A DNA stretch of 36,781 bases from Candidatus Poribacteria bacterium. Its GTDB lineage: Bacteria > Poribacteria > WGA-4E > WGA-3G. A model generated the notes under the pieces. That model made no database searches. It worked only from the letters and a program-made list of their open reading frames with translations, and was not told the origin of the DNA. Position 1 is the stretch's first letter. The number at the start of each line of letters is the position of its first letter. Below are positions 5,341 through 11,891 of this stretch, piece by piece. Made by a program: the position numbers and the translations under genes. The stretch is taken from NCBI GenBank assembly GCA_026702755.1, contig JAPPBX010000016.1, forward strand, positions 1 to 36,781. The letters are read 5' to 3'.

Positions 5341-6123
5341 CTATTGTGGAAGATTTGACTTCAGTTTTCCCCATGTTGTTGCTAACTTATCTTGTGGTTT
5401 TACTGCCAACACACCTTCAATGCCTTTGTTCATCAATTCCTGAATCTCTTGCTCGGAGCGCGCAATGTTTGAAATCCTGACCTCATCCATTCGTCCCTCT
5501 AAGAAAGGACCGGCACCGCGTCCGAGCCACAAAACATCGTCGTTCGGAGTGATATTACCGCCGATATTGCCTTCGCCGTCTAAGACCCCGTTGATGTAAA
5601 TCTTGGCATCGCCGGACTTGGCATCGTAGGTTCCAGCGATATGCGTCCATTTCTTCAGTGGCATATCCGTTTTACCGGCAGCGACTGCAGCTCCCCAGGC
5701 ATGCTTATCCGTAGTCATCCGGATTAGTACCTTCTTATCGCTCCGAGGTCCCACTTTGTAGGTTGTCTCTTTCGTGGCACCTGTGCCGCCAGCGGTTGAC
5801 CATGCCTCAAGATAGAGCCACATTTCGACAGTGAGACCCTCAACCAGATCTAAACTGTCGCTATCGGGAATTTCTACAAAATCTCTGGGGCCATTTCCTC
5901 CAAAAACCAATCCACCACCGGGATTTCCCTCTCCCCATTTCGGACCCATGAGTTCACCATCGTTCTTATGTTCAGAGAGGTCTTTGACGACCTTCCCTGC
6001 GCCTGACTCAAAGGTATAGAGGAGGACGGTATGTTCATCTTGTGCAAAACCGGGTAGACTTCCGACAAATATTAGCAGGGAAGCGAATGTTAGCCAGCAT
6101 AGGGTGTTTACAGCGTTTCGCAT
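5341..6123 (-). CDS. Exported LamG/concanavalin-like protein with TTW tail
   Basis: 260 aa with signal peptide (about 1-27, cut after GFAQ). One LamG-type jelly roll: LLYTFESGAGKVVKDLSEHKNDGE, then VEIPDSDSLDLVEGLTVEMWLY, KWTHIAGTYDAKSGDAKIYING, and MDEVRISNIARSEQEIQEL. Such domains bind carbohydrate or act as adhesive or structural modules. After the fold comes AVKPQDKLATTWGKLKSNLPQ-stop, the C-terminal motif shared with the proteins at 8457, 11997, 35543 and 36467. AAGGA lies 10 nt before the start. The promoter at 6156-6184 carries a palindrome in its spacer. Confidence 0.8.
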   Translation of the reverse strand: MRNAVNTLCWLTFASLLIFVGSLPGFAQDEHTVLLYTFESGAGKVVKDLSEHKNDGELMGPKWGEGNPGGGLVFGGNGPRDFVEIPDSDSLDLVEGLTVEMWLYLEAWSTAGGTGATKETTYKVGPRSDKKVLIRMTTDKHAWGAAVAAGKTDMPLKKWTHIAGTYDAKSGDAKIYINGVLDGEGNIGGNITPNDDVLWLGRGAGPFLEGRMDEVRISNIARSEQEIQELMNKGIEGVLAVKPQDKLATTWGKLKSNLPQ

Positions 6124-6293: not shown

Positions 6294-8345
6294 ATGCAGT
6301 ACACATCACAACAAAATGATTGGTTGGTTCAGCCTTTTCGTCAACCCGCTTCGGTGGAGGAAAAGGACAATCGGCTTATTCTTGATAACGGACTCATCCG
6401 GCGAACGTTCGTCACCTCACCTAATTTCGCGACAGTTGATTATACTAATCAGATTACTGATAGTGGTCTTCTTCGTGGCATCAAACCGGAGGCGGTGCTT
6501 ACGATTGACGGACACCAATTTGAGGTCGGTGGCTTGAAAGGACAGCCCGACTACGCCTATCTTGATTCGGATTGGATTGTGGACTTGACCAGTGACGAGA
6601 ACGCATTTCAATTTCACGAGTATCGAGTCGGTGAAACTGAAATCCGCTATCCGTGGGTCCGCAGGCGTTCTTCGACATCATCAGTATATCCACCGGAAGG
6701 TGTGACACTAACGGTTGCGTTTTCACCGCCGCCATCCGTTGACTCCCTTCGGGTTTATGTGCACTATGAACTCTACCAAGGCATTCCGGTCCTGTCCAAG
6801 TGGATCACTGTTCGCAATGAGGGTCAAAAACCTATTCTATTGGATGCCTTAAGCTGTGAAATCCTTGCGATCAACGAGCAGGAGAAGCATCGGCTACAGG
6901 TCGAAAGCGATTACGCCTTCAGTGGAATGGAAACGACACAGTGGGGTCCAGATGCGGATTACAAGACGCAAGTCGATTATCACTATCAGATGCCACTGTT
7001 GATGAGAAGTTTCTATCCACTCGGTCCGGGAGTATCCCTTCAACCGGGAGAGACTTTCAGGAGTTTTCGCACCTTCGAGATTCTGCATGACAGTGATGCT
7101 CGTGAACGAAAAGGACTTGCGCGTCGTAAAATGTATCGCACGGTCGCGCCACAGGTCACCGAGAATCCTATCCTCATGCACGTTCGGAGTGCTGAACCGG
7201 ACGCGGTCCGTTTGGCAATCGATCAGTGCGCCGAAGTCGGATTTGAAATGGTGATTATGACCTTTGGGAGCGGCTTCAATATCGAGAGCGAAGACCCGGA
7301 ATACATCGCCACGATGAAGGAATTGACCGATTATGCCCATCGTAAAGGTATTCAAATCGGTGGCTATACGTTGATGTGTGCCTCGCGGGGTGTGGGCGAA
7401 GACTTCAACTGTATTGACCCAGACACTGGACAACCTGGAAGTCGGTTTGGACAGAGTGCTTGTCTGGCGAGCCGCTGGGCAGACGGTTATTTCCAGCGGG
7501 TGCTGAATTTCATGGATGCAACTGGGATGGATATCATTGAGACTGATGGTCCTTATCATGGTGATGTCTGTGCATCAACGACGCATGAATACCATAACGG
7601 GTTGGCGGATTCGCAGTTGCGCCAGTGGGAAGCGTGCGTTCATTTTTACCACGCATGCCGAGCACGCGGTATCTATATCAATTCGCCAGATCAGTATTAC
7701 CTCAACGGTTCAAACAAATGTGGTATGGGCTATCGCGAAACAAATTTCAGCTTGCCCCGCGAGCGGCAAATTCTAATCGCTCGGCAGAATATCTACGATG
7801 GAACTTATGAAAAGACACCGAGTATGGGCTGGATGTTCGTTCCGCTGGTGGAGTATCACGGTGGTGGGCAAGCCGCAACGTTTGAGCCGCTTTGTGACCA
7901 CCTTGATGACTACGAATCACATTTAGCGCAAAACTTCGGCAGCGGTGTAATTGCGTGCTATCGCGGTCCCCGGCTTTTTGATACGGAACAGACGAAAGCA
8001 GTTGTTAAGAAATGGGTTGACTTCTACAAAAGGTATCGCCCAATATTGGATTCTGACTTGATTCACGTGCGCCGTCCAGATGGGCGTTCTATTGATTGTG
8101 TGCTCCATGCCAACGCGCAAATCAGTCCGTGTGGACTCGTGATGCTCTATAACCCTACACGGACGAGACAACAGATGACTTTGAGGTTGCCGCTCTATTA
8201 TACTGGATTGTCTGAAATTGCCAAGATTCGTGCAGGAGAAGGTGAACCTAAAAGGTACAAAATCGACCGGAATTACAATGTTGAGATTCCTATTAAGATG
8301 GAAGCCAAGAGCGTTAACTATCTCGTTATTGAACCTGAAGTTTGA
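6294..8345 (+). CDS. Putative clan GH-D-like glycosidase (alpha-galactosidase-like), cytoplasmic
   Basis: 683 aa, no signal peptide. Residues about 20-270 form a beta-rich N-terminal domain (NRLILDNGLIRRTFVTSP; VLSKWITVRNEG; SLQPGETFRSFRTFEIL), as in GH36-type enzymes. Residues about 300-600 look like a TIM barrel: GFEMVIMTFGSGF, GIQIGGYTLMC, GMDIIETDGPYHGDVC (the Asp of ETDG sits where clan GH-D enzymes carry the nucleophile) and GIYINSPDQYY. A short beta domain ends the protein (CGLVMLYNPT to NYLVIEPEV). Predicted role is hydrolysis of alpha-linked sugars; exact family and substrate are unknown. It is divergent from the LamG-GHL15 pair and followed by another LamG gene, so the locus looks like a small glycan-use unit. 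Confidence 0.6.
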   Translation: MQYTSQQNDWLVQPFRQPASVEEKDNRLILDNGLIRRTFVTSPNFATVDYTNQITDSGLLRGIKPEAVLTIDGHQFEVGGLKGQPDYAYLDSDWIVDLTSDENAFQFHEYRVGETEIRYPWVRRRSSTSSVYPPEGVTLTVAFSPPPSVDSLRVYVHYELYQGIPVLSKWITVRNEGQKPILLDALSCEILAINEQEKHRLQVESDYAFSGMETTQWGPDADYKTQVDYHYQMPLLMRSFYPLGPGVSLQPGETFRSFRTFEILHDSDARERKGLARRKMYRTVAPQVTENPILMHVRSAEPDAVRLAIDQCAEVGFEMVIMTFGSGFNIESEDPEYIATMKELTDYAHRKGIQIGGYTLMCASRGVGEDFNCIDPDTGQPGSRFGQSACLASRWADGYFQRVLNFMDATGMDIIETDGPYHGDVCASTTHEYHNGLADSQLRQWEACVHFYHACRARGIYINSPDQYYLNGSNKCGMGYRETNFSLPRERQILIARQNIYDGTYEKTPSMGWMFVPLVEYHGGGQAATFEPLCDHLDDYESHLAQNFGSGVIACYRGPRLFDTEQTKAVVKKWVDFYKRYRPILDSDLIHVRRPDGRSIDCVLHANAQISPCGLVMLYNPTRTRQQMTLRLPLYYTGLSEIAKIRAGEGEPKRYKIDRNYNVEIPIKMEAKSVNYLVIEPEV

Positions 8346-8456
8346 ACGCTCCCTAATTTTTCGATGTCAGCGGATTTCTGACATGTTGGGTGCCTGAGTT
8401 AATGAAACAGATTTCCTCACGTATGTTGAACCGTTCATTCATAAATGGAGGTAAAA

Positions 8457-9224
8457 ATGAGAGTAATCCAATTAGCAAAAGCGATTTTAGTATCCGGAAC
8501 GCTGATCTGCATCAGTTTCATGATCTCAGATCTAAGTTCTGCCAAGCTCGATCCGGACGCAGCTTTGGGAATATGGTTTTTTGATGAAGGTAAAGGTGGC
8601 GTGGCAAAAGATTCTGCCGAAAATGGGAATGACGGAGAGATTGTTGGTGCTAAATGGGACACTGGCCAGTACGGTGAAGCTCTACAGTTTGAGGGTGGAG
8701 CACATGTTGCTGTCGGTGATTTTTCTGATTATGAGGATGAAGTGTCAATCGTTGCTTTGATTAAAACGCCTGCAGCCCCAGCATGGTCTGACATCATTGT
8801 AGGTCCCTGCAGCGACGTTATCTTGACATTGCAGAACCACAAATTAAATTTCGCTGGACAGTGTGGACAACCAATTCCGCATAACACATGGTCGACAACC
8901 TTATTGAACGATGATAAGTGGCATTACATCGCAGGGACTTATGACGGTAAAAAAGTGAATGTCTATGTCGATGGTGAATTAGAAGCATCTAATGCTGCCG
9001 CAGGTCCATTTGTAGCGGGACCGAAGTATATTGGCTCCAGAGACGACAAACAGGAGGCTTTCACAGGTCTCATTGATGAGATCGCATTTTTCAATGCCGC
9101 GCTCTCAGAGAATGATGTAAAAGCGATTTCCGACAGTGGATTATCTATCGCACTCGGTTTTGCAGCGGTTTCTCCGCAAGCGAAACTTGCCACGACTTGG
9201 GCGAAATTGAAAACAGAACCCTAA
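8457..9224 (+). CDS. Exported LamG protein with TTW tail
   Basis: 255 aa. ATG 8457 is chosen because GGAGGT (8447-8452) lies four bases upstream; the ATG at 8445 overlaps that site. Signal peptide about 1-30. LamG jelly roll: AALGIWFFDEGKGGVAKDSA with ENGNDGEIVGAKW, HVAVGDFSDYEDEVSIVALI, KWHYIAGTYDGKKVNVYVDG, and LIDEIAFFNAALSENDVKAI. The end reads AVSPQAKLATTWAKLKTEP-stop, near-identical in sense to the tail of the minus-strand LamG protein at 5341 but with different codons. Cys residues in the mature part (PCSDV, QCGQ) could form a disulfide. Confidence 0.8.
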   Translation: MRVIQLAKAILVSGTLICISFMISDLSSAKLDPDAALGIWFFDEGKGGVAKDSAENGNDGEIVGAKWDTGQYGEALQFEGGAHVAVGDFSDYEDEVSIVALIKTPAAPAWSDIIVGPCSDVILTLQNHKLNFAGQCGQPIPHNTWSTTLLNDDKWHYIAGTYDGKKVNVYVDGELEASNAAAGPFVAGPKYIGSRDDKQEAFTGLIDEIAFFNAALSENDVKAISDSGLSIALGFAAVSPQAKLATTWAKLKTEP

Positions 9225-9740: not shown

Positions 9741-11891
9741 ATGAAACAGAAAAACTTTATCGTAGCACTTTTCGCTTGCATGCTAATGCTTTCAACCATA
9801 GTTGTACTAAATACTTGGACACAGAGTAAACTGTCGGTAGACGAGAAACGGTTCGACTTCGACCAGAATGATGTGCTCAGCGAAGCTGAACAGCAGCTCA
9901 TGTTTAGGGTGATGCGGCTTGAAGCTGCCAGAGGAAACAAATTCAGTGAGAGCGAGATCCGTCAGATGCAAAGTGGAGAACGAGATAGATCTCGTAGAAG
10001 GGGAGGATTCGGTAGAGGACGTGGTTCCCGAGAACCTTCAGGACCTCGTCTTGATCCAGAGCAGGTCGCATTCAAAGATGGCGCAGCCACAATTCCGGAC
10101 CGCGAGACCTTCAAAAAACTCTCATATCAGGGCACGGATGTCCGTATTGATACGCAACTGACCGGAATTGAATTTGTAAAGTTTCAGATTGAGAGGACAC
10201 ATACAGAAAATCCGCAGCTTTATTTCATGAACACGGTGACCCATCGCTCCCATGGCAGCTTCATGGGGGCTGCGGGTTTGGGACGCGGGCAAGGACAGAT
10301 GCGCGGTGTGCTGAGTTATCGTCCACTTTTCACTTCTCCGAATGGTGAACCCGGTGTTTATACCTTTGAATTTAATCCAAACGATGCCTTCCCGTTTGAG
10401 GAAATTAAGCTTGCTCACGATCTGCTCGTTGCTAAAATGCCGATACTGAAAAATCGCCTCGGCTATTGTCCGTTATGGGGAGCCATCGGTATTTATAATC
10501 GTGAAAAAGCACTCTATGACGCAGCGGAATTCCCTGTCTATTTTGAAGATGACCTTTACGCCAACATCGGCTACCTTCCGCTGAATCAGGCAGCGTCATT
10601 CGGTCGGCTACGTGTATTGGCGGTGGATGAACGTCCTACAGTTCGGGATATTGTCATCTGCAAAACGTTGCCAAACGAGATGCCGCGTGTCGCTGGGGTT
10701 ATCACGGGTGTCCAGCAGACGCCGCTTTCGCATGTTAACCTTCGTGCTATTCAGGACAAAGTTCCGAACGCCTTCATCGCTGAGGCATGGAAAAGCGCAA
10801 GGATTGCACCACTCATTGGCAAGTACGTCTACTATAAAGTGAACGCAGACGGTTTTGAAATTCGGGAGGCAACACTCAAGGAAGTGGATAGCCATTTTGC
10901 CGATTTACGTCCCCCGAAAGCGCAGAAACCGGAGCGCAACCTCTCTCTTAGGGAGATTCTACCGCTTGATAATATCCGCTTCACAGATTCATCTGGCTTT
11001 GGTGTCAAGACCGCTAACGTAGCAACACTCCGCACATTTGGATTTCCAGAAGTCACGGTGCCGAACGGATTTGGTGTTCCCTTCTACTTCTATGACGAAT
11101 TCATGAAGCACAACGGTTTCTATGAGGAGCTTGAGAGTTTGCTCAAAGATCCAACGTTTCAAAGTGGACAAGACACAAAAGTCGCAGAGTTGAAGAAGTT
11201 GCGGGCAGAGATTAGGAAGGGCGAAATGCCGGCGTGGATGATGGAGGCACTTTCGGAATTGCAAAGCGCATTTCCAGAAGGGACATCTCTCCGGTGCCGC
11301 TCCAGCACAAACAACGAAGACTTACCTGGTTTTAGCGGTGCAGGTTTATACGATTCCTTCACACATAACTCGGACGAAGGGCATCTATCAAAGTCGATTA
11401 AGCAAGTGTTTGCAAGCCTCTGGAACTTCCGGGCATTTGAGGCGCGTGATTTCTATCGGATCGACCATTTTACTACAACTATGGCGGTGCTTGTCCATCC
11501 TAATTTTGCAAACGAATTGGCGAATGGCGTTGCTGTAACCGATGATGTTGTCTATCAAACAATAGGGAATTACTATCTCAACACGCAGGTCGGTGAGGAC
11601 CTCGTGACAAATCCTGAAGAGCAATCCGTTCCGGAAGAGATTTTATTGGATTGGTGGGACAGTAGTAACTATAGGGTTGTGAAAACTTCCAATCGCACAG
11701 TAGACAACGAACGCATTTTGACGGATGCCTACCTACGTGAACTGAGTCGTTATCTTGGTATGATACACAATAAGTTCAGTCAGCTCTATGGACCCGTTGG
11801 GCGGACGAAGGATTTCGCTATGGAGATTGAGTTCAAGATTACGAGCGACGGGAAACTCTCGATCAAACAAGCGAGACCATGGGGATATTAA
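9741..11891 (+). CDS. Membrane-anchored or exported PEP-synthase/glucan-dikinase-like protein
   Basis: 716 aa from ATG 9741 (GAGGAA at 9731-9736; a GTG at 9729 overlaps it). N-terminal hydrophobic segment about 5-25 without a clear cleavage site. Then an EF-hand-like loop DFDQNDVLSEAE (about 39-50) and an Arg/Gly-rich linker (about 80-105). Around residue 331 TPLSHVNLRA matches the phosphohistidine motif of swivelling domains. The C-terminal 290 residues are a PPDK_N (PF01326) nucleotide-binding domain: FGVKTANVATL, LRCRSSTNNEDLPGFSGAGL (about 517-536), IEFKI and IKQARPWGY. The order His domain then ATP domain is that of glucan and phosphoglucan water dikinases, opposite to PEP synthase and PPDK, and no PEP/pyruvate TIM barrel is present. 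Phosphoryl transfer to a glycan is therefore plausible but unproven. Confidence 0.65.
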   Translation: MKQKNFIVALFACMLMLSTIVVLNTWTQSKLSVDEKRFDFDQNDVLSEAEQQLMFRVMRLEAARGNKFSESEIRQMQSGERDRSRRRGGFGRGRGSREPSGPRLDPEQVAFKDGAATIPDRETFKKLSYQGTDVRIDTQLTGIEFVKFQIERTHTENPQLYFMNTVTHRSHGSFMGAAGLGRGQGQMRGVLSYRPLFTSPNGEPGVYTFEFNPNDAFPFEEIKLAHDLLVAKMPILKNRLGYCPLWGAIGIYNREKALYDAAEFPVYFEDDLYANIGYLPLNQAASFGRLRVLAVDERPTVRDIVICKTLPNEMPRVAGVITGVQQTPLSHVNLRAIQDKVPNAFIAEAWKSARIAPLIGKYVYYKVNADGFEIREATLKEVDSHFADLRPPKAQKPERNLSLREILPLDNIRFTDSSGFGVKTANVATLRTFGFPEVTVPNGFGVPFYFYDEFMKHNGFYEELESLLKDPTFQSGQDTKVAELKKLRAEIRKGEMPAWMMEALSELQSAFPEGTSLRCRSSTNNEDLPGFSGAGLYDSFTHNSDEGHLSKSIKQVFASLWNFRAFEARDFYRIDHFTTTMAVLVHPNFANELANGVAVTDDVVYQTIGNYYLNTQVGEDLVTNPEEQSVPEEILLDWWDSSNYRVVKTSNRTVDNERILTDAYLRELSRYLGMIHNKFSQLYGPVGRTKDFAMEIEFKITSDGKLSIKQARPWGY

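Follow-up and report, generated by a model that had tools for sequence, protein, structure and literature searches.

A putative exported histidine-relay phosphotransferase of Poribacteria that shares its leader with a CotH kinase

Most of what is known about phosphorylation beyond the bacterial cytoplasm comes from CotH. A gene at positions 9741..11891 (+ strand) of the window, the 36,781-nucleotide stretch of Poribacteria DNA analysed here, raises the question of what a phosphotransferase with a phosphohistidine motif and an ATP-grasp domain would be doing behind an export signal. The 716-residue product is, on balance, probably an exported, active phosphotransferase of the GWD (plant glucan water dikinase) type, in which phosphate would be relayed through a histidine and delivered, in a CotH-like job, to an extracytoplasmic acceptor. 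The case is built from domain order, residue conservation, export signals, a shared leader and gene neighbours, and the catalysis, acceptor, donor and role are read from these.

The coding part (9741-11888, +) starts with ATG; a GTG lies 12 bases upstream as a possible alternative, yet homologues align from the same ATG. The protein consists of a leader, a domain at residues 106-300, a phosphohistidine domain and a C-terminal PPDK_N ATP domain, in that order. Within it, a Pfam search finds PPDK_N at residues 421-713 (E=1e-27) and GWD1_pHisD at residues 316-378 (E=0.015; 15.4 bits, under the cut-off of 27). No other family is matched at E<=10, which argues that there is no pyruvate (TIM-barrel) domain, and in the PDB, searches by sequence and by fold match nothing but ATP-grasp domains, those of PEP synthase, rifampin phosphotransferase and related enzymes. 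The AF2 model of the protein is graded good (pLDDT 86.8). A missed pyruvate domain or a split PEP synthase is ruled out by the Pfam result together with the gene next door, which runs on the opposite strand and encodes a kelch protein. A sequence-only reading of this DNA had proposed the GWD-like order, with the phosphohistidine motif (residues 326-336) ahead of PPDK_N and the pyruvate domain absent, and both points hold; the PEP synthase fold with an overlooked TIM barrel, which that reading had named as the case against itself, is not what the searches returned.

The protein shares with PEP synthase and pyruvate phosphate dikinase the PPDK_N ATP domain, at about 14-21% identity in fold alignments, and differs from them in lacking the pyruvate barrel, in carrying its His motif before the ATP domain, and in its predicted export. 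The best NCBIfam matches are to PEP synthase, all far under cut-off, as would be seen with a degenerate PEP synthase that has no activity. However, the position of the His motif, the presence of separate PPDK_N enzymes in the window genome, and catalytic residues that are invariant over five phyla make such an origin hardly credible.

These residues lie in two places. The phosphohistidine motif QTPLSHVNLRA (residues 326-336; 10716..10748, +) contains the predicted phospho-acceptor H331 (10731-10733, +), and QTPLSH..LRA is invariant in 33 sequences save for V332. The LSHV core of the motif lacks the Gly-Gly seen in PEP synthase, and the His motif of GWD is of the same type. The GWD1_pHisD profile is matched by 18 of the 33 members at E<=1 (best E=7.8e-5), this Pfam profile being the sole formal test of likeness to GWD. 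The PPDK_N ATP-grasp domain (residues 421-713; 11001..11879, +), which matches 5hv3 by Foldseek (E=6e-16), carries K423, R520, E526, E697, Q710 and R712 and has the Lys/Arg/Glu/Gln/Arg nucleotide site of its superfamily. When the domain is aligned by profile with rifampin phosphotransferase and with PEP synthase 2ols, K423 falls on the GGK lysine and R520 on the RSS arginine, while E697, Q710 and R712 pair with residues of the PEP synthase MDIEW and QARP motifs. H331, K423, R520, E697, Q710 and R712 are unchanged in 33/33 aligned members, and two broader alignments (15 and 23 sequences), which take in distant exported subfamilies, keep the same six save for one Q710D. In rifampin phosphotransferase, Lys22Ala kills all activity, Arg117Ala stops the second half-reaction only, and Glu297Ala does not abolish activity (PMC4844700). 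By our reading of the motifs, Lys22 and Arg117 would be the aligned partners of K423 and R520; E697 is given less weight because the Glu297Ala enzyme was still active. Since the tested ATP-site residues and H331 are invariant, loss of activity is unlikely. The ATP-binding residues that the sequence-only reading had wished to see checked are all in place (K423, R520, E697, Q710, R712), its option of an inactive protein is contradicted, and a degenerate enzyme is rejected on the invariance among the 33 members. Nor is the feature a product of chance, because one genome collection holds 209 relatives, and H331 does not vary among members from five phyla.

The region between leader and phosphohistidine domain had been overlooked in that reading, as had the breadth of the family and the link to CotH, VTC and DUF4956. 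It forms a separate, conserved N-terminal domain (residues 106-300; 10056..10640, +; AF2 pLDDT 87), in which K147, N164 and H171 are invariant in all members that have the domain; the three residues are missing from a form linked to an SxxK protein (see below). No PDB fold match was obtained for this domain at E<=0.001, and APOBEC/cofilin-like folds (best E=0.04, probability 0.2) were taken as chance. It is probable that the domain, with K147, N164 and H171, is the site for the acceptor substrate.

Where, then, would this enzyme act? Its first 28 residues (9741..9824, +) form a signal-peptide-like segment with a positive n-region and a hydrophobic core (about residues 5-24), and a canonical EF-hand calcium-binding loop, DFDQNDVLSEAE, follows at residues 40-51 (9858..9893, +), just as had been noticed from the letters. 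The loop is present in 41/42 Poribacteria relatives, the sole exception being an N-terminally truncated fragment. An ideal AxA-type cleavage site is missing from the window protein, which has Thr at -1 (NTWT/QS, the slash marking the cleavage position); aligned relatives have TWA/EE, IFA/QN, ILA/QD or ALA/QN. Because NTWT/QS is a poor site, a surface-anchored form of the protein is possible, and its signal segment may be cleaved inefficiently or serve as an anchor. By a simple heuristic rule rather than a dedicated predictor, a signal-peptide-like start is seen in 72/76 members as against 0/36 PEP synthases and related controls, and an AxA-like site in 60/76 relatives. In addition, 7/33 members, several Bacteroidota among them, carry Por_Secre_tail, the type-9-secretion (T9SS) sorting domain, some of them together with CARDB or SprB; TSP3-like domains occur on some relatives and a dockerin on one (L113). 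The Thr at -1 and a continuous AF2 helix from residue 2 to 26 would suit an uncleaved anchor holding a membrane-bound dikinase toward the cytoplasm. This arrangement is very unlikely, because most homologues have cleavable-looking signal peptides, because the T9SS tails, CARDB/SprB, TSP3-like and dockerin domains of relatives belong outside, and because an N-in/C-out orientation is the one favoured by a helix that comes after a positive n-region. Thus, the suggestion that an enzyme with an ATP site is exported or anchored agrees with the family as a whole, and its cytoplasm-facing variant does not. (A lipoprotein was also considered and rejected; LFAC at residues 10-13 is too early and is not conserved.)

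Insight into the possible role comes from the leader. The leader module, residues 1-100 (9741..10040, +), comprises the signal, the EF-hand and an Arg/Gly-rich linker, and in the entire 5.8-Mb genome a single further place matches it (E=2.9e-10). There, a CotH kinase of 817 aa, which has LTD and EF-hand domains, carries the matching sequence at its N-terminus (blastp, 38% identity across 78 aa), and its gene adjoins a DUF4956 gene. When the leader was used to scan 60 relatives, nearly all genus-mates gave two copies, one on a frame of ~720 aa and one on a frame of ~820-860 aa; all six of the longer frames that were checked are CotH, and the four from the window's genus adjoin DUF4956. The CotH copy of the leader is found alone in other genera and in the one genus-mate without the enzyme. 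The enzyme gene itself is present in 35/36 genomes searched of the genus (its own genome counted), and a full-length copy in 0/24 more distant Poribacteria relatives, which suggests that it was gained by transfer and then kept within the genus. From the distribution of the leader, the leader was most likely acquired from a CotH already present at the time when the enzyme core came in.

Several observations belong beside this comparison. The window genome has two DUF4956 and two CotH genes (L199:2092-5266 and L200:2552-3382, contigs C107 and C40; L201:2654-4885, contig C45), with one CotH-DUF4956 pair side by side. In one genus-mate the enzyme gene is broken into two frames (G030:C39:55453-57529), a possible frameshift or assembly error. 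L054:9612-12062, taken for CotH by a home-made profile, was discarded, as Pfam finds ankyrin repeats and an acyltransferase there, and L130, a real CotH, was left out of the leader-sharing evidence because its EF-hands are C-terminal to the kinase domain.

A second, independent line leads from gene neighbours in other phyla to the same module. VTC is the next gene downstream of the enzyme in three loci (L051, L062, L065), and DUF4956 follows VTC in the latter two; about 0.015 such VTC neighbours would be expected, a rough estimate that takes 5000 genes per genome. A more distant Bacteroidota subfamily of ~630 aa has DUF4956 beside the gene in 7/7 loci, several of them close relatives. CotH-VTC proximity is present in the same data, and published work has described CotH and a VTC domain in one locus (PMC2879425) and gene sets of CotH, polyphosphate polymerase and DUF4956 (PMC7112168). 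CotH is missing from 4/6 genomes with the VTC/DUF4956 arrangement (G079, G081, G114, G681) versus 1/35 others (Fisher p=7e-4 over all of them and 0.013 within the close family, from few genomes, some of them related and some of unknown completeness). The window locus has no VTC, DUF4956 or CotH neighbour, and its link to the module is the shared leader. Taken together, the leader and the neighbours argue for a tie between the enzyme and the CotH-VTC-DUF4956 module. We tentatively propose, at somewhat less than an even chance, that bacteria have, besides CotH, another class of extracytoplasmic kinase with no structural kinship to it, namely exported histidine-relay dikinases. In an envelope module with VTC and DUF4956 these would stand in for CotH and transfer phosphate to a protein or glycan of the surface, with polyphosphate or exported ATP as a possible supply.

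Alternatively, the protein could be an exported ATP-grasp enzyme whose substrates are glycans or small molecules and whose work has no connection to CotH, the leader being a surface tag and VTC and DUF4956 incidental. Most relatives do have unrelated neighbours (close relatives outside Poribacteria lack an adjoining VTC in 36/39 genomes), EF-hand/Gly-Arg leaders occur on other Planctomycete proteins (L129, and a stand-alone leader-like ORF at L048:9556-10041), and the partner of one exported subfamily (L148, L166) is a beta-lactamase-like SxxK protein. However, the one other match of the leader in the genome is a CotH kinase, a pattern that recurs across the genus, and the same DUF4956/VTC partners recur in Proteobacteria, an unclassified bacterium and Bacteroidota. 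We regard this alternative as clearly less likely.

The window protein has no match to CotH (PF08757) at E<=10, and the CotH fold is protein-kinase-like, whereas the window enzyme is an ATP-grasp plus phosphohistidine protein of unrelated fold. What the two have in common is the leader within the window genome, the VTC and DUF4956 neighbours in other phyla, and, as published for CotH, ATP-dependent phosphotransfer outside metabolism.

Beyond the cytoplasm little ATP is normally available, so that phosphate might come, as the sequence-only reading had also allowed, from a donor other than ATP, such as polyphosphate made by VTC, pyrophosphate or released nucleotides. The VTC neighbours in three loci, and a VTC somewhere in 24/39 genomes having the gene, are in keeping with this. 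Yet the enzyme keeps a complete ATP-grasp nucleotide site, and polyphosphate is not favoured because no recognisable VTC is found in the window genome; moreover, CotH works with ATP in vitro, and the source of its ATP in vivo, equally puzzling, is called an unanswered question (PMC7821199). A non-ATP donor thus appears improbable.

With ATP as the donor, the proposed pathway, drawn by analogy with GWD and rifampin phosphotransferase, would proceed as follows. After Sec export, the leader and its calcium-binding EF-hand would tether the protein or place it at the surface. The C-terminal ATP-grasp domain would bind ATP and pass the beta-phosphate to H331, releasing AMP and Pi; by swivelling, the His domain would then bring its phosphate over to the N-terminal domain, and there, at K147/N164/H171, an acceptor outside the cytoplasm, either a glycan or a protein, would be phosphorylated. 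Such a job would parallel that of exported CotH kinases, and the enzyme could take the place of CotH beside VTC, a polyphosphate polymerase domain, and DUF4956.

Rifampin phosphotransferase has its ATP domain first, its His domain last and a rifampin-binding domain, and is not known to be exported; in the window protein the domain order is reversed and the rifampin-binding domain is absent. What rifampin phosphotransferase and small-molecule dikinases (HpeHI) share with the window protein is the ATP-grasp fold, the catalytic residues and the His-relay logic (PMC4844700, PMC12167813). GWD1/PWD of plants are similar in placing the phosphohistidine domain ahead of a C-terminal PPDK_N, with the weak GWD1_pHisD match, and GWD transfers the beta-phosphate of ATP to His and the gamma-phosphate to water (PMC7569903). 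Unlike GWD, the window protein is bacterial and apparently exported, with an EF-hand leader and another N-terminal domain, and it contains no starch-binding or other carbohydrate-binding module at E<=10 (Pfam).

The scan of genome contigs that gave the 209 relatives left 80 for analysis, from Poribacteria, Planctomycetota, Verrucomicrobiota, Bacteroidota and Proteobacteria; identity to relatives outside Poribacteria is about 48-61%. The carriers include two culturable species, Neolewinella agarilytica and N. persica (L074, L075). Besides the ~630-aa Bacteroidota form, a distant exported subfamily, Planctomycete forms of ~1000-1850 aa join an exported phosphotransferase core to repeat and dockerin-like C-termini (L111, L112, L113, L114, L132, L133, L134). 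An exported PPDK_N/phosphohistidine form of ~970-1000 aa, with ATP-site residues and His conserved, occurs in Flavobacteriales and Proteobacteria and directly adjoins the exported beta-lactamase-like SxxK protein (L148:38-4236, L166:116-4323; also L167-L169, L172, L184). Exported PPDK_N proteins have no specific family model at present, and no paper on them was found among open-licence papers; a CotH-like role of the present enzyme, if true, would hint at what a wide range of these proteins do. Since relatives in five phyla keep the catalytic residues and an export signal, a second kind of extracellular kinase, next to CotH, may have been overlooked. A widespread, unrelated enzyme type with the leader and partners of CotH and a full ATP site would open the question of the ATP source from a second side, and it suggests that VTC and DUF4956 serve exported kinases in general.

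Finally, the surroundings of the gene were considered. No functional link was seen that would make an operon with the window neighbours (LamG, kelch, DUF5916), which differ outside the genus, and a phage-defence role was dropped when PADLOC gave no match. At 6294-8345 lies a gene for a 683-aa protein without a Pfam or NCBIfam match, syntenic beside the enzyme gene in about 24 Poribacteria loci. It is flanked by genes for two exported-looking LamG-domain proteins (5341-6123 and 8445-9224), relatives of which lie beside the enzyme gene in about 36 loci.
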